From assembly GCA_012840385.1 (NCBI GenBank), contig DULK01000078.1, positions 1 through 64,000 of the forward strand: a stretch of 64,000 nucleotides of DNA. Reading direction: 5' to 3'. A program made the translations under genes and the position numbers. Positions 51,841 to 60,485 of this stretch are shown piece after piece (position 1 is the first letter of the stretch; every line of letters begins with the position of its first letter). This DNA comes from Syntrophomonadaceae bacterium (GTDB lineage: Bacteria > Bacillota > DSM-12270 > Thermacetogeniales > Thermacetogeniaceae). A model generated the notes under the pieces. It saw nothing but the letters and a program-made list of their open reading frames with translations, searched no databases and had not been told where the DNA came from.

Positions 51841-52522
51841 CCTTTCTCCTGTGAATACAGCAAACCTTCTCCGCCGTCTTTCGATACTCCCGAACCATCC
51901 CTGCCAAATCGGCCCCCTTGAAAAGAGCGGAACCTATTACAAGAGAATCGGCTCCGGCTGCGACGACGCTTTCAATGGTTGACAGATTGATACCACCGTC
52001 AACTTCCAACTCCACCTTAAAACCGGAGTCGTCGATCATCCTTCTCATTTTCTCGATCTTCCGGCATACCTGCTGGATAAACGCCTGTCCTCCCCACCCG
52101 GGATTTACAGTCATTAACAGCACCAAATCCACCTGATCCAGAACATACTCCATAACATGCAAAGGTGTGGCAGGGTTTAAAGCAACCCCAGCCCGCAGAC
52201 CCAGGCCCTTGATGCTTTGAACCACACGATACAGATGAGGACAAACCTCCGCATGAACCGTCAGAATATCTGCCCCCGCATCGGTAAATGGCTCGAGAAA
52301 ATGCTCAGGCTCCTGCACCATGAGGTGTACATCAAAGGGCAGGCCTGTGACTCTCCGGAGAGATTTTACGACAGGAGGACCAAAAGTCAGGTTCGGTACA
52401 AATTTCCCGTCCATCACGTCTAAATGAAGGTAATCGGCTCCACCTGCTTCGAGAAGGTGAACCTGGGGAGCCAGATTGGCAAAGTCGGCACTCAAAATAG
52501 ACGGCGCAATCCTTATTTTCAT
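51827..52522 (-). CDS. rpe: Ribulose-phosphate 3-epimerase
   Basis: About 231 residues, TIM barrel. It begins MKIRIAPSILSADFANL and has YLHLDVMDGKFVPNLTFGP, DVHLMVQEPE, VLLMTVNPGWGGQAF and EVDGGINLSTI, holding all metal ligands. It interconverts ribulose-5-phosphate and xylulose-5-phosphate. ATG 52522 overlaps the rsgA stop (ATGA); the longer frame to 52585 is inside rsgA. Confidence 0.96.
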   Translation of the reverse strand: MKIRIAPSILSADFANLAPQVHLLEAGGADYLHLDVMDGKFVPNLTFGPPVVKSLRRVTGLPFDVHLMVQEPEHFLEPFTDAGADILTVHAEVCPHLYRVVQSIKGLGLRAGVALNPATPLHVMEYVLDQVDLVLLMTVNPGWGGQAFIQQVCRKIEKMRRMIDDSGFKVELEVDGGINLSTIESVVAAGADSLVIGSALFKGADLAGMVREYRKTAEKVCCIHRRKVDEF

Positions 52523-53394
52523 TCGTAGATTCGCTCCCTGGCCATAACCTCCGCTAGGAAGGTCACGTAGTTCTGATAACGGCACCGGCTGATGATCCCC
52601 TTATCAATGGCGGCCTTGACGGCACAGTCCGGTTCCTGGTAATGTAAGCAGTCCAAAAAACGGCACTGCCCTGCCAGATCGCTTATTTCGGGAAAATAGC
52701 GACCCAGTTCCGTCCTTTTCATGTCAGGAAGGTAAAGATTGCTGAAGCCGGGAGTATCGGCGATAAAACCGCCGGCAACAGGAAGCAGTTCCACATGTCG
52801 TGTTGTGTGCCTTCCCCTTTTCAGCTTGGAACTGATCTCCCCGGTTTTCAAAGCCATCCCCGGTTCCAGGGCATTGAGGAGAGTAGACTTCCCCGCACCG
52901 GAAGGCCCCGCCACCACAGATATCTTTCCCTTTACCTTTTCCCGCAGGCTCTCTATGCCCGTTTTTTTAACGGCAGACGTAAAGATTACCTCATAACCTG
53001 CACTCCGGTAGATACCGGCAAGCTCTGAAGGGAACCGTCCGGAGACCAGATCCGCTTTATTAAAACAGATCAGAATACTTATTCTTTCTACTTCGCACAA
53101 GATGAGAAGCCGGTCCAGCAACTTTAGGTCCGGTTCTGGGTTGGCCAGAGCAAATACCAGTATCGCCTGATCCACATTGGCCACAGGAGGGCGGCTCAGG
53201 GTGTTTTTGCGCGGCAAGACCCTTTCGATGACGCCGGATCCATTTTCCACCAGGGTAAAGAGAACATGGTCTCCTACCAGGAGGGATTGTTCACTCATTT
53301 TCAGGCGCCCGCGCCCCCTGCACCGGCAGATCCCTCGATCCGACTGCACGAAATAAAAACCGCCGTACCCCTTTACAATCAGACCCTGATGCAT
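52519..53394 (-). CDS. rsgA: Ribosome small subunit GTPase RsgA
   Basis: 291 residues. The OB fold is followed by a circularly permuted GTPase with FNKADLV first and G1 GPSGAGKSTLLNAL near residue 170, then DTPGFSNLYL, and a C-terminal zinc motif in CRFLDCLHYQEPDC. It checks late 30S assembly. It lies between the PASTA kinase gene and rpe, as in Bacillus. Confidence 0.96.
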   Translation of the reverse strand: MHQGLIVKGYGGFYFVQSDRGICRCRGRGRLKMSEQSLLVGDHVLFTLVENGSGVIERVLPRKNTLSRPPVANVDQAILVFALANPEPDLKLLDRLLILCEVERISILICFNKADLVSGRFPSELAGIYRSAGYEVIFTSAVKKTGIESLREKVKGKISVVAGPSGAGKSTLLNALEPGMALKTGEISSKLKRGRHTTRHVELLPVAGGFIADTPGFSNLYLPDMKRTELGRYFPEISDLAGQCRFLDCLHYQEPDCAVKAAIDKGIISRCRYQNYVTFLAEVMARERIYE

Positions 53395-53410: not shown

Positions 53411-55240
53411 TTATTCTACCGGAATTGTTCGCTTTAGCTGGTCCTGGAAGTAGATTAATATTTCTCCCGAACCATACACAACAAATTCTTTCTCAATTTT
53501 ATCCCCGGTCAGGTGTTCCCCTTCGTAGGCAACCCGGCTCCCGCGGGAGTCGTTTATTACCACTTTTACCACACCGGGGCTATTCACCTTGAATTGCAGT
53601 GGAACAGTATGCTGCATCGGGCCGGGACCCTGACTAACCCCAACATCAACCGTATCACCGGCCTTAACGGGAGTTCCCTCGCTTATGCTCTGACTGGAGA
53701 TGGTCCCCTGCGGATACTGGCTGCTCGATTCTTCTCTAATCACCCCTAAACTTAATCCCATCCTCGAGAGTATGGTTCTGGCCTGTTCGACCGTCTGCCC
53801 CAACAGGGAAGGCATGACCAGGTTGGCGGGGCCTTTACTGACTATGAGCTTAACCTCGGTTCCCTCCTTAACGTTCCGGTCACCGGGAGGCTCTTGGGAA
53901 ATAACAGTGTCTGCTTTGACCGTATCGCTGTTGACTTCGGTCACGGTAACCCGGAATCTGCCCTCTCTTTCCTCGAGCATCATTTTCGCTTCACTCAGCG
54001 GGAAACCGGTAACATCGGGCAGCCAGACAAGGCGTGCCCCCTTGCTCACCCACAGGTTGACGCCGCTGCCCTTTTTCGCCCTGAAGTTGCCCACCGGGTC
54101 CTGCCTGAACACAACACCGGCAGCGATATCGGCATTAAACACCTCAACGATTTTTTGCACCCGAAAACCTGCTTCCTTCAGTTTTGCCTCTGCCTGTGCC
54201 AACTGCATATGGGTCACATCGGGAACGACTGCATCTTCGACGAAAAACCACTTAGAAAAAGCCCATAAGCCTGCGGCAACCAGAAGCAGGAAGAAGATAC
54301 CTAAAGCAACCCATGCGGCGGGATGGAGACGCCGCCTGCTCCTGGAAGCACTTAGTTCATTTTCGGGATCGATGTGGAGGAAACGGGTGCGCTCATTTTC
54401 ATCGAACCCATTCTGCTCCACAACAGAGCCCCCCGCCAGAGCGTTTTGCATCTCCCGGGCAGAGGCAAAGCGTTGGTCCGGATCTTTGGCCATAGCCTTG
54501 AAAATAATCTCCTCCAGACTGCGGGGGACGGTCGGGTTTTCTTTGCGGAGTGAAGGTGGTTGTTCCTGTAAGTGTTTCAAAGCAACCGATATCGGGTTGT
54601 CGCCTTGAAAGGGCACATGCCCGGCAACGGTTTCATACAGAACAACCCCGAGGGAATAGAGGTCCGACTTAGGGCCCACCTCCTCACCCCTGGCCTGTTC
54701 CGGTGCAAAATAATGAACGGATCCCATCACCGTCCCCGACTGAGTTACCGTGGCAGCCGGCAAAGACAGGACCCGGGCCAAACCGAAATCCGCCACCTTT
54801 ACCCGCCCACCGGGCATAACCAGTATATTATGGGGCTTGATATCCCTGTGAATAATCCCCTTTTCGTGGGCGTGTGCCAGGGCGGCACACACCTGGATGC
54901 CTATGTTGATGGTTTCTCCCGGAGACAGCTTTCCCTCCCGTTTGATAATCTCTTTCAAATTAAAGCCTTCCACGTATTCCATCACCAGGTAGGGAAGACC
55001 GCCTTCCTCCCCCACATCATAGATGCTCACTATGTTTGGATGAGACAGGCTGGCGACCGCCTGGGCCTCGAGCTGAAAACGCCGTACAAAATCCTTGTCT
55101 TCAGCCAGTTCACCGCGCAGGATCTTGACCGTGACAATCCGGTTCAGGACCCTGTCTTTTGCCTGGTAAACGTTGGCCATCCCCCCTGAACCGAGCTTGG
55201 CGATAATTTCATACCTGTTGCCGAGAATTTTTCCAACCAT
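53411..55240 (-). CDS. prkC: Ser/Thr protein kinase with PASTA domains (PrkC/PknB type)
   Basis: 609 residues. The kinase domain has the glycine loop LGSGGMANVY, Lys39, HRDIKPHNIL (Asp133) and DFG (151-153). One membrane span lies near residues 309-330 (ALGIFFLLLVAAGLWAF). Three extracellular PASTA repeats follow, near residues 338-405, 405-475 and 475-545, with a further beta domain at the end. PASTA repeats sense peptidoglycan fragments. Usually a PP2C phosphatase gene stands upstream; here pbpA does. Confidence 0.95.
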   Translation of the reverse strand: MVGKILGNRYEIIAKLGSGGMANVYQAKDRVLNRIVTVKILRGELAEDKDFVRRFQLEAQAVASLSHPNIVSIYDVGEEGGLPYLVMEYVEGFNLKEIIKREGKLSPGETINIGIQVCAALAHAHEKGIIHRDIKPHNILVMPGGRVKVADFGLARVLSLPAATVTQSGTVMGSVHYFAPEQARGEEVGPKSDLYSLGVVLYETVAGHVPFQGDNPISVALKHLQEQPPSLRKENPTVPRSLEEIIFKAMAKDPDQRFASAREMQNALAGGSVVEQNGFDENERTRFLHIDPENELSASRSRRRLHPAAWVALGIFFLLLVAAGLWAFSKWFFVEDAVVPDVTHMQLAQAEAKLKEAGFRVQKIVEVFNADIAAGVVFRQDPVGNFRAKKGSGVNLWVSKGARLVWLPDVTGFPLSEAKMMLEEREGRFRVTVTEVNSDTVKADTVISQEPPGDRNVKEGTEVKLIVSKGPANLVMPSLLGQTVEQARTILSRMGLSLGVIREESSSQYPQGTISSQSISEGTPVKAGDTVDVGVSQGPGPMQHTVPLQFKVNSPGVVKVVINDSRGSRVAYEGEHLTGDKIEKEFVVYGSGEILIYFQDQLKRTIPVE

Positions 55241-55243
55241 GCG

Positions 55244-56644
55244 CTATAACCCCCTTCGGGCTAAGGCAGTTCTCATCAATTCCCTGGCGATGGGGGCAGC
55301 CGCTCTCCCGCCCTGTCCCCCGTGTTCAATTATAACGCTTACAACCACCTGGGGATCCCGGGCGGGAGCAAAAGCCACAAACCAGGCATGGGTTTTTCCG
55401 GTCGGATTCTCCGCCGAACCGGTTTTCCCCGCCACCTCAATCCCGGGAAGGGCTGCCGCGGTCCCTGTCCCGTTTCTCACAACCTCTATCATGGCATCCC
55501 GTACCTTGGCAGCTATTTCGGGAGATACAGCCAATCTGAATATTTGAGGCTGCGCCTTCCAGATAACAGATCCTTCATGGCTTCGAATCTCTCGCACAAG
55601 GTAGGGTTTCATCATAACGCCGTCATTGCCGATGGCTCCGGCCACCATGGCCATAAACAAGGGACTGACTACGATCTTACCCTGTCCTATGGCAGCCTCC
55701 GCAAGTCCTTCGGGTTTAGAGAAACTCTCCCTGGGAAGGGGAATTGTTTGTGTCGGCACTTCCAGTGCATAATCCTGACCCCAGCCAAAAGCAGCAAGGC
55801 CATCCGCGAAATCGCCTGCTCCCAGGCGAAGGCCGAGATTGGCAAAATAACTGTTACAGGACACCGCCAGGGCGCGTTTTAAATCCACCAATCCATGAGA
55901 GCGCAGGTCCTTTAAAATTCTACCATGAATTTTTATTTCCCCACGACAATCATATACACTGTCCTCAAGACCGGGAAACTTTTTCAACCCTGCGGCAGCA
56001 GTGACAATTTTAAGAATCGAACCAGGGGGGTACAACCCAACGGTTGCCCTGTTAACAAGAGGGCGACCGGGCTCCCTTTTTACCGTCTCCCAGTTTTTCT
56101 CCAGATATAAAGGATCGGGATCGAAACTCGGCGAACTCACCAGGGCGAGTATCTCTCCGTTCTTAGGATTCAGAACGACCGCCGCCCCGGTATATGGTGA
56201 GAGCAGATCCCATGCCTTCAACTGGAGCTGATGATCGACTGTAAGGTAAAGGTCGTTTCCCCTGATTCCCCTGACACCCCAGCGCACTTCGAGGCTTTTC
56301 TTGAGAGAGCCTTTCAATCCCAACAGTTGGTCATCGTAGGAGCTCTCCAGCCCTGTCTTTCCCAAACGTTTCGATTCATATCCGGTGATCTGGGCATAGA
56401 TCCTCCCATAATAGTATTTTCTGGTAAAATGCTCCCCAACGGGAAGACTCTCCGCTATCTTTTCGCCCCCTCTCGCAAAAATTCCTCCTCTCTGGATACG
56501 ACTCTCAAGGATCCATGGGCGAGGGTTGGCACCTTTCCGGTTAAGGACGGGGGCCCTCCAGACAACAAAATAAATAAGGTAAATTGCATACAGGACGAAG
56601 CATCCGATTATAAAAAACCTGAACCCTTTTATGGCCTTCTGCAT
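55244..56644 (-). CDS. Class B penicillin-binding protein (PbpA/PBP2 type)
   Basis: 466 residues. One N-terminal span (residues 8-28) is followed by a short dimerisation domain and a transpeptidase domain with SxxK at Ser209-Lys212 (GSILKI), SxN at Ser262-Asn264 (SCN) and KTG at 407-409. It cross-links peptidoglycan and is expected to pair with the FtsW/RodA-type glycosyltransferase encoded just upstream. The short length and order fit actinobacterial PbpA rather than FtsI. No PASTA domain is present. Confidence 0.92.
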   Translation of the reverse strand: MQKAIKGFRFFIIGCFVLYAIYLIYFVVWRAPVLNRKGANPRPWILESRIQRGGIFARGGEKIAESLPVGEHFTRKYYYGRIYAQITGYESKRLGKTGLESSYDDQLLGLKGSLKKSLEVRWGVRGIRGNDLYLTVDHQLQLKAWDLLSPYTGAAVVLNPKNGEILALVSSPSFDPDPLYLEKNWETVKREPGRPLVNRATVGLYPPGSILKIVTAAAGLKKFPGLEDSVYDCRGEIKIHGRILKDLRSHGLVDLKRALAVSCNSYFANLGLRLGAGDFADGLAAFGWGQDYALEVPTQTIPLPRESFSKPEGLAEAAIGQGKIVVSPLFMAMVAGAIGNDGVMMKPYLVREIRSHEGSVIWKAQPQIFRLAVSPEIAAKVRDAMIEVVRNGTGTAAALPGIEVAGKTGSAENPTGKTHAWFVAFAPARDPQVVVSVIIEHGGQGGRAAAPIARELMRTALARRGL

Positions 56645-56647
56645 CTT

Positions 56648-58306
56648 CTATTCCCCTTCGCCGATTTTGGTCAGTATTCCAAATAAAAAACAGTTAGAAA
56701 CAAAGGAACTTCCTCCATAGCTCAGGAAGGGCAAGGGAATACCCGTCAGCGGTATCAGGTTGGTCACTCCCCCCAGAATGATCAACGCCTGCAGGGCCAA
56801 GAGGGAACTGCATCCAAATGCCAGCAGGCGCCCAAAATCATCGGGGGTAATCAGGGCAATTTGCAGCCCCCTCCAGATCAAGACGGCGTAAATAAAAACA
56901 ACACCCAGGGCGCCGGCCAGGCCCATTTCCTCCCCCAGAAGAGGAAATATAAAATCAGTGTGCACAGCAGGTATCAATTCAGGAAAACCGCTCCCCAAAC
57001 CCCAGCCAAACACACCACCGCCTCCCAGGGCAAAGAGGGATTGGATGATCTGGTAGCCCCCGCTATCAGAAAACTTCCAGGGGTTGAGATATACCGCTAT
57101 CCTTTCCTGGACGTGTGGAAATATGAGAAACATGAGCCAGGCGCCGGCAGCAAAGAGCAAAACCCCGCTCAACAGGTAAGAGAGGCGCCCGGTTGCAGCA
57201 TAGACCATTGTCAAAAAGATCGCAAAAAACAGAAGGGCCATCCCGAGGTCGCGCTGGAAGACCAAAAGCAGAAGAGACAGCCCGCATGCCGCCAAAAGCG
57301 GACCCAGATAAGGCCAGTCGGGAATTAAAAAAGGCCCGAACCGCCTGGTCCCCCGGGTGAGAATCTCCCGGTTTTCATCGAGGTAGCCTGCCAGATAGAT
57401 AACCATAAATATTTTCACCAATTCGGAAGGCTGAAAGCGGAAAGAGCCCAAAGAGAGCCAGCTCCGGGCCCCGCCCGCTTCGGTTCCCAACAATATGGTC
57501 AATAAAAGAAAAAGAACCCCAAGGGCCATAAATAAATATTTGTACTCGGTTAACCTTTCATAATGACGCAAGAAAATACGCGCAATCCAGAAGGCGGCGA
57601 TACCCGTCAGGACCCAGTAAGACTGCCGAAGCCCAAAAGCAGGATTGATCCTGTACAAAAAGATCAGTCCCAGAGATGACAGGATTCCTATCAGCAAAAA
57701 AATAAGCGGATCCCCTCTCCCCTTGATAAAAGAAAACAGAGAACCCATGCTGAGAAAAAATGCTACACTCAGTAATGCGGCAAAGTGGTGCGGGGAAAGA
57801 AATCTATTCAGGTAAAGGGCTACACCCCCTGCAGCGAGGATCAGGCCCGGATAAAGAAACAAAGAAGAGATGCCCCGGTCTTCCCGGATCCGCGAGGGGG
57901 GATTGAAGCCGAACACCACCCGGCCAATCCTCAGCCTATCCCCGGGTTTGACAGGTGTGGGACCCACAACCCGCTCGCCATTTAAGAAAGTGCCGTTCCT
58001 GCTGCCCAAATCCTCCGCCATGTAAATCCCGCTTACCTTAAAGATCCTTGCATGTCGCAAGGAAACATAAGGATCCGGTATGCTGATCGGGCAGCCCGGG
58101 TCCCTCCCGATAACCGTTTCGTTTTCTACATCCCACTCTCTTCCCACCTTCACCGAAAAGCAGCCGGAAGCAAGTACCGCAAGGGAGTGTTTGGGGTTTT
58201 TTACCTTAATACCGGCGTGTTGTTTCAAGTACAGGAGCAGGGCAATAAAAAAAATGTAAAGCAGCAAGAGAACCACATACCTCAGGGCGAGTATGATCCA
58301 GAGCAC
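56648..58306 (-). CDS. FHA-domain fused to FtsW/RodA-type glycosyltransferase
   Basis: 552 residues. A membrane span at residues 5-28 is followed by an FHA domain at about 48-135 with Gly-Arg 67-68, Ser82-His85 and Asn104-Gly105, the phosphothreonine-binding residues. About ten membrane spans of the SEDS family then follow, with GAQ-like and LPFLSYGGSSF motifs near the C-terminus. SEDS proteins polymerise peptidoglycan. The first part looks like actinobacterial FhaB (anchor plus FHA) joined to RodA. The frame is open throughout, so it is one protein. The kinase encoded two genes downstream could phosphorylate a partner bound by the FHA domain. Confidence 0.9.
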   Translation of the reverse strand: MLWIILALRYVVLLLLYIFFIALLLYLKQHAGIKVKNPKHSLAVLASGCFSVKVGREWDVENETVIGRDPGCPISIPDPYVSLRHARIFKVSGIYMAEDLGSRNGTFLNGERVVGPTPVKPGDRLRIGRVVFGFNPPSRIREDRGISSLFLYPGLILAAGGVALYLNRFLSPHHFAALLSVAFFLSMGSLFSFIKGRGDPLIFLLIGILSSLGLIFLYRINPAFGLRQSYWVLTGIAAFWIARIFLRHYERLTEYKYLFMALGVLFLLLTILLGTEAGGARSWLSLGSFRFQPSELVKIFMVIYLAGYLDENREILTRGTRRFGPFLIPDWPYLGPLLAACGLSLLLLVFQRDLGMALLFFAIFLTMVYAATGRLSYLLSGVLLFAAGAWLMFLIFPHVQERIAVYLNPWKFSDSGGYQIIQSLFALGGGGVFGWGLGSGFPELIPAVHTDFIFPLLGEEMGLAGALGVVFIYAVLIWRGLQIALITPDDFGRLLAFGCSSLLALQALIILGGVTNLIPLTGIPLPFLSYGGSSFVSNCFLFGILTKIGEGE

Positions 58307-58309
58307 GGT

Positions 58310-59086
58310 TCAGCCCCCTTCGATCTGCAGCAAGTTCTCCCCGATCTGAATTTGATCACCGATCTCCACGCTTTTCTGGTCAATCCCGCTGCCGTTAACA
58401 AAGGTACCGTTCCTGCTGTTTAAATCGATGAGGTAGAGCTCTCCGTTCCGGTATTCCAGAAGAGCGTGCTCGCGAGATGCATTTATATCCGAAAGAACGA
58501 CATGATTTGTGCTTTTACGTCCGATCATAAAGGGGCCCTCCCCTTCAAGGGTAAATTTTTTGCCCTGATCGGGGCCTTGTATTACGCTGAGAATGATCTT
58601 TCTCCGTTCCGGGAACTCTTTTTCTTCTTTCCTAAAGATCATGGTATGATCAAAACGCTGAACATCACTGCGCTCCGGCTCGGGAACGTTTTCCTCGCTA
58701 TTCGGCGCAACTGTAGCATTATCCGTTGCAGCATAACTGGAGCGAACCCGAATTTCCCCAATTCCAAGAGTTCGATCTTCTTCGAAAGAAACCCTTGGCC
58801 TGCCGATCAAGGTAAATCCCTTTTCGGCCGCTTTATAGCTGATGTGCTCCTCCAGTTCCTGACTGAGCGCAGCTTGCAGGGGTGCGGTTTTCTCAAAATC
58901 ATCGGCTCCCAGACTGATTGTAAAAATATTTGGGGCATAGATGCGGGATACGCTGACACGTCTTTGCTGGGCCATTTCCCGGATAAGGGCGCGCGCCATT
59001 TCAACCGGTTGTACCTGGCGGGATGATTTCAAAAAAATGCCTTCCCAAAAGTTGGACAACAGGCGTTCCAGGTCCTGCAAACCCAT
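58310..59086 (-). CDS. FhaA-like protein: DUF3662 plus FHA domain
   Basis: 258 residues. The N-terminal DUF3662/FhaA domain (residues 1 to about 115) starts MGLQDLERLLSNFWEGIFLK and has RVSVSRIYAPNIFTISLG. A linker rich in Glu and Asn follows, then a C-terminal FHA domain at about 165-250 with IGRKSTNHVVLSD, SREHALL and LNSRNGTFVNG. FhaA binds phosphorylated kinase targets in cell-wall control in actinobacteria. It is the first gene of the cell-wall block, four bases after rsmB. Confidence 0.9.
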   Translation of the reverse strand: MGLQDLERLLSNFWEGIFLKSSRQVQPVEMARALIREMAQQRRVSVSRIYAPNIFTISLGADDFEKTAPLQAALSQELEEHISYKAAEKGFTLIGRPRVSFEEDRTLGIGEIRVRSSYAATDNATVAPNSEENVPEPERSDVQRFDHTMIFRKEEKEFPERRKIILSVIQGPDQGKKFTLEGEGPFMIGRKSTNHVVLSDINASREHALLEYRNGELYLIDLNSRNGTFVNGSGIDQKSVEIGDQIQIGENLLQIEGG

Positions 59087-59090
59087 TGTC

Positions 59091-60485
59091 TCACCTACCC
59101 TTCTCTGTCTTGCGCAAGCGTGCTATAAAAAAACCATCGGTTCCGTGCCGGTGCGGCAGCAACTGGAGATAACCGGATCTTGCCGTCCGGCAATCCTCTT
59201 CATAAACAAGCGGAAAGGGGATCAGGCCTGTTATATCCTCGAGCTGAAATCCCTCCGTTTCCCTTAAAAATCGGGCAATCACATCCTGATTTTCCTCCGG
59301 TTCTGTGGAACATGTGCTATACACCAATACACCGCCTGTTTTCAAAGTGATTGCTGCGCCTTTAAGAATCTCCAGTTGTTGTTGGGAGTAAAGTGATAGA
59401 TCATCAGGCGCCACCCTCCAGCGCAGGTCAGGGCGCCTCCTGATCACACCGAGTCCGGAGCAGGGTGCATCAACTAGGACATAGTCCGCCTTTCCCCGCA
59501 ACTCCTGAGGGATCAACCGGGCGTCCAGCAGCTGCCTCTCTATAATAGTAATACCCAACCGTTCAGCCGTTTCGGCAATTAACTGCAGTCGATGTTCATG
59601 TACGTCAAGGGCTAAGATTTTTCCTCTATTATTCATAATTTGGGCCAGATGCGTCGTCTTACCCCCGGGACCGCTACAGGAGTCGATAACAAAGGAACCC
59701 GCTCTTGGGTTCAGGACGAGAGAGGCAAGCATGGAGCTTTCGTCCTGTACAACAAAATAACCATCCCTAAAAAAGGGTAGCTCTGGCAAAGAAGTTATGT
59801 GCGACACCCTTACTCCCTCCGGGATATAGGGACTGGGTGCAGCCTCTATATTATTTTTTTTCAGTTCCCGGCAGAGCTTTTCCGGTGTTGTCCTCAAGGT
59901 GTTGCATCGCAAAACAAAGGGCGGTCTCTCATTATCGGCCTTGCACAACGATCTTGTTTCCTCTTCCCCAAAGCGCTTCAGCCAGCGCTCCACGAGCCAG
60001 TGAGGATGGGAGTATTTGATGCTTATGTGGAGACCGGGGTTTTCTCTTAAAGGTGGATAAACGATCTGATCCCGGTTTCGAACAACACTGCGTAAGATTC
60101 CGTTTACAAAGCCGGCCAGCCGCTCCAGCCCCCACGCCTTTGCCAGCTTTACCGACTCGTTGCAGGCCGCGGACGGGGGAATGCGTTCCAGGAAAAGCAA
60201 CTGGTAAACACCCATTCGCAGTATATTGCGAACAATATAATTCATCCTGTCGACAGGCAGTTTGCTGAATTGGTTGATCACCCAGTCAAGATTATTTCGC
60301 CAGCGTAGGGTACCGTAAACCAGTTCTGTTAGCAAAGCAGTATCGGAGGGCTTCATCCTGTGCTTGGAGTGAAGCTTCTGCAGAGCAAGGTTGGCGTAGG
60401 CCCCTTCCTTTTCTACCGCTAGCAGCACCCGCAGCGAACCGTCCCTGGCCGAATAAACGCGATGGAATAGATCCTGCTCCTTCAA
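59091..60485 (-). CDS. rsmB: 16S rRNA (cytosine967-C5)-methyltransferase
   Basis: 464 residues. The N-terminal NusB-like domain covers about 1-140 (LRMGVYQLLFLERIPPSAAC). The methyltransferase domain has the SAM motif VIDSCSGPGGKTTHLAQIM, VDAPCSGLGVIRRRPDLRW (catalytic Cys) and VYSTCSTEPEENQDV. It methylates C967 of 16S rRNA. Usually rlmN and a PP2C gene follow in Firmicutes; both are absent here. Confidence 0.96.
   Translation of the reverse strand: MKEQDLFHRVYSARDGSLRVLLAVEKEGAYANLALQKLHSKHRMKPSDTALLTELVYGTLRWRNNLDWVINQFSKLPVDRMNYIVRNILRMGVYQLLFLERIPPSAACNESVKLAKAWGLERLAGFVNGILRSVVRNRDQIVYPPLRENPGLHISIKYSHPHWLVERWLKRFGEEETRSLCKADNERPPFVLRCNTLRTTPEKLCRELKKNNIEAAPSPYIPEGVRVSHITSLPELPFFRDGYFVVQDESSMLASLVLNPRAGSFVIDSCSGPGGKTTHLAQIMNNRGKILALDVHEHRLQLIAETAERLGITIIERQLLDARLIPQELRGKADYVLVDAPCSGLGVIRRRPDLRWRVAPDDLSLYSQQQLEILKGAAITLKTGGVLVYSTCSTEPEENQDVIARFLRETEGFQLEDITGLIPFPLVYEEDCRTARSGYLQLLPHRHGTDGFFIARLRKTEKGR

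Follow-up and report, generated by a model that had tools for sequence, protein, structure and literature searches.

In the Thermacetogeniaceae, an FHA domain and a SEDS peptidoglycan polymerase are encoded as one protein, and this fusion very probably arose when the phosphatase gene pstP was lost from between fhaB and rodA while the PASTA Ser/Thr kinase was retained. The Thermacetogeniaceae, to which the genome analysed here and the genus Thermacetogenium belong, are called the family throughout; the window denotes the whole stretch of 64,000 nucleotides that was analysed. The fused gene of the window and its parts are as follows.

56648..58306, minus strand: fused gene fhaB::SEDS (rodA-like), a single frame of 552 amino acids with a GTG start
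58214..58303, minus strand: FhaB-type N-terminal membrane anchor, residues 2–31 (model helix and hydropathy peak of 2.70)
57923..58117, minus strand: FHA domain, residues 64–128 (Pfam PF00498, E = 7.7e-19)
57866..57901, minus strand: junction or linker, residues 136–147 (alignment with the ends of outgroup FhaB and RodA)
57725..57865, minus strand: two additional membrane helices upstream of the canonical SEDS core, residues 148–194 (model and hydropathy)
56663..57664, minus strand: SEDS glycosyltransferase core, residues 215–548 (Pfam PF01098, E = 1.5e-79)
56954..56956, minus strand: catalytic Asp451 (alignment with Asp255 of T. thermophilus RodA)

The frame contains no internal stop codon, and its GTG start, preceded by a GGGGG stretch, lies 3 bases past the end of fhaA. 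The initial annotation had read it as an anchor, a whole FHA domain and a full SEDS polymerase in one open frame, which was borne out by Pfam searches, hydropathy and structure modelling. The FHA domain scored 68.3 bits with PF00498 (cut-off 20.7) and the polymerase 268 bits with PF01098 (curated cut-off 26.4), which places them in the respective domain families. An AlphaFold2 model of moderate confidence (mean pLDDT 69) comprises a helix (residues 2–31), an all-beta domain (residues 40–135) and a bundle of membrane helices starting at residue 148. Foldseek searches with this model matched the polymerase part to RodA/FtsW structures and the FHA part to GarA-type FHA domains (TM 0.8–0.9 by target); these closest solved folds belong to GarA/OdhI proteins, soluble metabolic regulators which, unlike the fusion, carry their own phosphorylated N-terminal tail. 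Asp451 is invariant in 18 fusions, and the anchor helix aligns in all fusions of the family. The junction consists of the FhaB end followed by the N-terminal tail of RodA, and outgroups carry a PP2C at that point. The alignment with T. thermophilus RodA begins only at profile position 200, i.e. without the two extra helices, and these helices also occur in unfused outgroup homologues.

The existence of the fusion in the family is near certain. Full-length fusions were found in 18 of 20 family genomes with 55–97% identity to the window protein, those of the same genus being 91–97% identical in a search of 80 relatives. Neither exception (G009, where a contig end cuts the gene, and G004, whose gene lacks the FHA domain) encodes fhaB and rodA as two genes, nor does any other of the 20 genomes. 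The family genomes are mostly drafts, and an assembly or sequencing error could in principle have joined two genes; this explanation has a negligible probability and is refuted by the relatives, as the same single frame recurs in 18 species, one of them represented by an isolate genome in one contig. This genome of 2,939,057 bases, taken as that of Thermacetogenium phaeum, encodes a fusion of 568 amino acids and lacks a PP2C of the Stp type. No ambiguous N bases occur at the loci of the window genome and of T. phaeum.

The distribution of the fusion was surveyed by a profile search of 399 Bacillota genomes covering 141 family codes, with matches listed to about 1e-73. Among the matches listed, proteins with both an FHA and a FTSW_RODA_SPOVE domain in one frame, for which a search had been proposed, were confined to the Thermacetogeniaceae; other listed matches extending into the FHA region are interrupted by a stop, and their examined loci consist of two genes. 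A search of genome contigs for related loci returned two near relatives and otherwise unrelated SEDS proteins only, and a search of a plasmid collection yielded one near-full-length match, from Monoglobus, with its two genes separate. In this record, which is filed as a plasmid (L176, NZ_OY725743.1), genes for an FHA protein, a SEDS protein and a PBP stand in tandem and unfused. Titles, abstracts and passages of the literature searched contained no report of an FHA-SEDS fusion. The parts are each of a known kind; what is, to our knowledge, new is their joining and the disappearance of the phosphatase alongside a retained kinase.

Several candidates were rejected. Long open frames such as those of 700 amino acids in G004 and 568 in G045 were re-read one by one and not counted as fusions, as stop codons interrupt them or the FHA domain is absent; in G045, G212, G242, G367 and others, a stop codon separates the neighbouring fhaB and rodA genes. 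A PP2C::SEDS fusion in G219 (L160:6190-8628) was not accepted, as its frame spans an ambiguous base at the junction. At three loci of other families (L108, L156 and L157), fhaB and rodA lie about 10 bases apart and share a reading frame that is interrupted by one stop codon, and thus a single change could fuse them; the genes nonetheless stay separate.

The fused gene is part of an operon-like array which reads fmt, DUF116, rsmB, fhaA, fhaB::rodA, pbpA, pknB, rsgA and rpe, all on the minus strand. The relevant neighbours were assigned as follows.

59091..60485, minus strand: rsmB, conserved flanking gene (domain search, family and outgroup loci)
58310..59086, minus strand: fhaA, with an FhaA_N domain (residues 3–115) and an FHA domain (residues 187–249) (domain search)
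55244..56644, minus strand: pbpA, class B PBP with PBP_dimer_2 and transpeptidase domains, presumed partner of the SEDS protein (domain search)
53411..55240, minus strand: pknB, PASTA Ser/Thr kinase with three PASTA domains (NF033483, 599 bits, cut-off 450)
52519..53394, minus strand: rsgA, conserved flanking gene (domain search, family and outgroup loci)

With fhaA, fhaB, rodA, pbpA and the PASTA kinase in this order, the window has the make-up of a PASTA-kinase operon; the PP2C expected of a PASTA-kinase/PstP operon was found neither between fhaB and rodA nor elsewhere in the window genome. Two further differences in gene content were observed. The gene rlmN, which follows rsmB in most outgroup operons, is absent between rsmB and fhaA (59086-59091 in the window) and from the operons of the whole family; it is also missing genome-wide from most family members examined, including the one-contig G005, and a full copy is located elsewhere in G003. 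DUF116 was undetected in the interval from fmt to rsmB in roughly half of the family (L079, L081, L082, L086, L087 and L090-L093).

Gene order around the kinase-cluster SEDS was compared by annotating 20 loci of the family and 42 of outgroups. The typical outgroup operon reads fmt, DUF116, rsmB, rlmN, fhaA, fhaB, PP2C, rodA, pbpA, pknB, rsgA, rpe. A PP2C gene separates fhaB from rodA at 26 outgroup loci, which agrees with the earlier proposal that the fusion point coincides with the site of pstP; fhaB directly precedes an unfused rodA at nine loci, and the remaining seven have no recognised separate fhaB. The actinobacterial order from which this proposal had started, fhaA-fhaB-pstP-rodA-pbpA-pknA/B, was recovered in the NCBI annotation of Actinomyces oris (fhaA, FHA protein, PP2C, FtsW/RodA, PBP2, kinase, PknB). 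As many Bacillota show the same ancestral order, the comparison with actinobacteria is not required for the argument.

The phosphatase is missing from more than the operon. A PP2C of the Stp1/PstP type (NF033484) was detected in each of the 61 genomes from other families and in two of the 20 Thermacetogeniaceae genomes, G006 and G018, in neither of which the gene lies inside the operon. The other 18, including the window genome, have no such phosphatase and keep the PASTA kinase; the broader PP2C_2 model (PF13672) also gave no match in the window genome. G006, which lacks the operon pstP, contains a separate module that encodes FHA proteins, kinases and PP2Cs, two of each (L122, G006:C34:1-17000). 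Synteny and the absence of a PstP/Stp-type phosphatase from the whole genome thus support the suggestion, already made in the initial annotation, that the loss of pstP created the fusion, and we regard this origin as highly probable. In outgroups the PP2C gene overlaps fhaB or directly adjoins it, and the distance from there to rodA is mostly no more than a few tens of bases, so that one deletion of about 0.7 kb would suffice to make the fusion. In the alignment, the fusion retains FhaB up to the last FHA strand, drops its short tail and enters the N-terminal tail of RodA. The family occupies a single branch of the SEDS tree (support 99), which is most simply explained by one origin. We infer that a single deletion of this size, from the end of fhaB to the start of rodA, would have removed pstP in an ancestor of the family and joined its neighbours in frame, leaving the FhaB part with its anchor and whole FHA domain and the polymerase with almost its entire N-terminal tail.

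The polymerase had been named RodA by the initial annotation. The assignment as a SEDS protein was right, but the protein is not the only RodA candidate, as the window genome encodes three SEDS proteins: one between murD and murG (the place of FtsW/SpoVE), one beside minD (the place of RodA) and the fused one. The fused SEDS scored 241 bits with the RodA equivalog TIGR02210 (cut-off 336.7) and 264 with the FtsW model (cut-off 337.5); it is a SEDS protein that falls outside the RodA equivalog defined by this model. Judged from sequence, it is the SEDS of the kinase cluster paired with a PbpA-type PBP (PBP_dimer_2). Since it is the third SEDS of its genome, general elongation is not necessarily its task; sporulation and outgrowth are other candidate roles.

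A plausible function follows the order of signalling. PknB would phosphorylate threonines of its own activation loop and, probably, a conserved threonine in the linker of FhaA:

58643..58645, minus strand: Thr148 of FhaA within a DHTMIF linker, candidate kinase site and FHA ligand (FhaA alignment)

The FHA domain of the fusion would bind one such phosphothreonine, so that the SEDS-PbpA pair would be docked on the signalling complex and positioned or switched on there; with PstP gone, the phosphothreonine mark would presumably be long-lived. We consider it probable, on the basis of gene order and conserved residues, that a phosphothreonine provided by PknB recruits or gates SEDS-PbpA via the fused FHA domain. 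In mycobacteria, FhaA and FhaB recognise phosphothreonine, and depletion of PstP raises the phosphorylation of the PknB activation loop (PMC6554272, PMC11898655). The loop between the anchor and the next helix contains 18 Lys/Arg and 12 Asp/Glu residues; this FHA loop is the most positive soluble region of the protein. The N-terminus of SEDS proteins is cytosolic in known structures; together with the positive charge of the loop, this suggests a cytosolic FHA domain that would be turned towards the kinase domain. The choice of ligand and an effect on polymerase activity are likewise deduced.

The linker threonine of FhaA is present in all 19 family sequences and in 27 of 28 outgroup sequences (46 of 47), in an otherwise variable linker. 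A phenylalanine occupies the +3 position in 19 of 19 family sequences, where the motif is TMIF, and phenylalanine or tyrosine does so in many others; a comparable motif, TSVF, occurs in the tail by which GarA binds its FHA domain. The threonine may instead serve the FHA domain of FhaA itself, a reading suggested by G004, which keeps a TMVF motif although its polymerase has no FHA domain.

How far the FHA domain matters to the polymerase can be judged from its conservation. Its binding-site residues G67, R68, S82, H85, N104, G105 and T106 are invariant in the alignment of the 18 fusions. Pairwise dN/dS values are mostly 0.08–0.19 for the FHA domain (0.31 in one very close pair) and mostly 0.09–0.15 for the SEDS domain, and are often higher for the linker and the pre-FHA part; the FHA domain evolves about as slowly as the polymerase. 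The gene of G004 (L078:8605-9939), which contains no N, joins a FhaB-like anchor directly to the SEDS domain. G004 forms the earliest family branch in the SEDS tree, with weak support (83), and either the FHA domain was lost there or a larger deletion arose independently. As anchor and polymerase are kept in G004 without it, the FHA domain can be dispensed with, and this gene provides a useful natural control. If the FHA domain were a mere passenger, the deletion would have been fixed by drift, only the polymerase would matter and the FHA domain would be tolerated in no controlling role. Its in-frame absence from G004 with the anchor kept would fit, as would the linker, which is free to vary in length and sequence; we nevertheless hold this explanation to be unlikely, since all phosphothreonine-contact residues persist in sequences that diverge from the window protein down to 55% identity, dN/dS of the FHA domain is as low as that of the polymerase, and fhaB travels with rodA in many families.

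The latter point bears also on the ligand. Where kinase and PP2C are encoded elsewhere in other families, fhaB, rodA and pbpA are often found together (L108, L111, L115, L156, L157, L159), and this cohesion away from the kinase points to a partnership of FhaB and SEDS; adjacency alone does not select for fusion, as in several families fhaB directly precedes rodA and the two remain unfused. Such clusters would also be compatible with a ligand unrelated to PknB and FhaA, e.g. a lipid II flippase or a precursor regulator, through which polymerisation would be coupled to precursor supply, and mycobacterial FhaA binds phosphorylated MviN and CwlM (PMC11898655). A ligand of this kind appears rather unlikely to us; the kinase adjoins the fusion and pbpA at every family locus examined. 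Translation of the frame into both the complete fusion and an unfused SEDS protein, the latter from a start within the linker, is very unlikely. At residues 143–144, a TTG codon with a weak AGGT-type site is present in five genomes belonging to two genera, and a TTG candidate lies at 147 in T. phaeum. The family as a whole nevertheless shares no internal start close to the junction: this region contains none in the genera of G003/G010/G014 and of G006/G011/G015, and the sole candidates in the genus of the window lie inside the last FHA strand.

Recruitment or gating of SEDS-PbpA by a PknB-derived phosphothreonine would have consequences beyond the family. The gene for FhaB, a protein whose role is poorly understood, neighbours rodA in Bacillota and in Actinobacteria such as Mycobacterium. 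That a natural fusion has been maintained across a bacterial family suggests an action of FhaB on the SEDS polymerase, and this would provide a direct, testable route from the PASTA kinase to cell wall synthesis. PstP is essential in mycobacteria, and the Thermacetogeniaceae represent a natural PstP knockout with the kinase retained. Tentatively, and with some doubt, one can speculate on a phosphatase-free, hard-wired circuit from kinase to polymerase, with no dedicated eraser and with the polymerase carrying the reader of the mark. If this were true, the signal would be turned over via dilution, proteolysis or other phosphatases, and FhaB would generally be a subunit of the SEDS-PBP complex of the kinase cluster in Bacillota and Actinobacteria. 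Thermacetogenium phaeum, a rod-shaped spore former, is a cultured family member with a closed genome and is open to study.

Among known systems, FhaB (FipA, Rv0019c) of the actinobacterial fhaA-fhaB-pstP-rodA-pbpA-pknA-pknB cluster likewise has an N-terminal anchor and one FHA domain at the same place of the operon, but it is a stand-alone protein of about 155 residues, whereas the window version runs on into the polymerase. Residues 55–132 of the window protein scored 77.5 bits with the FhaB/FipA equivalog NF049868 (cut-off 125); the FhaB part is homologous to FhaB/FipA by place and architecture and lies outside the mycobacterial equivalog. RodA and other SEDS proteins of known structure (T. 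thermophilus RodA, 6BAR/6PL5; E. coli RodA, 8TJ3; P. aeruginosa FtsW, 8BH1) share the SEDS core and the aligned catalytic aspartate with the window protein, and RodA of the actinobacterial cluster has, as in the window, a class B PBP encoded next door. In contrast to known RodA and FtsW, the window protein has an FHA domain and an anchor in front as well as the two extra helices, and is the third SEDS of its genome. Fusions of SEDS with a class B PBP (about 840–912 amino acids; L114, L161, L162, L164, L170 and L171) were observed in four other families (f55, f121, f117 and f124); these also join operon neighbours around SEDS, but at the transpeptidase end and not at the FHA end.
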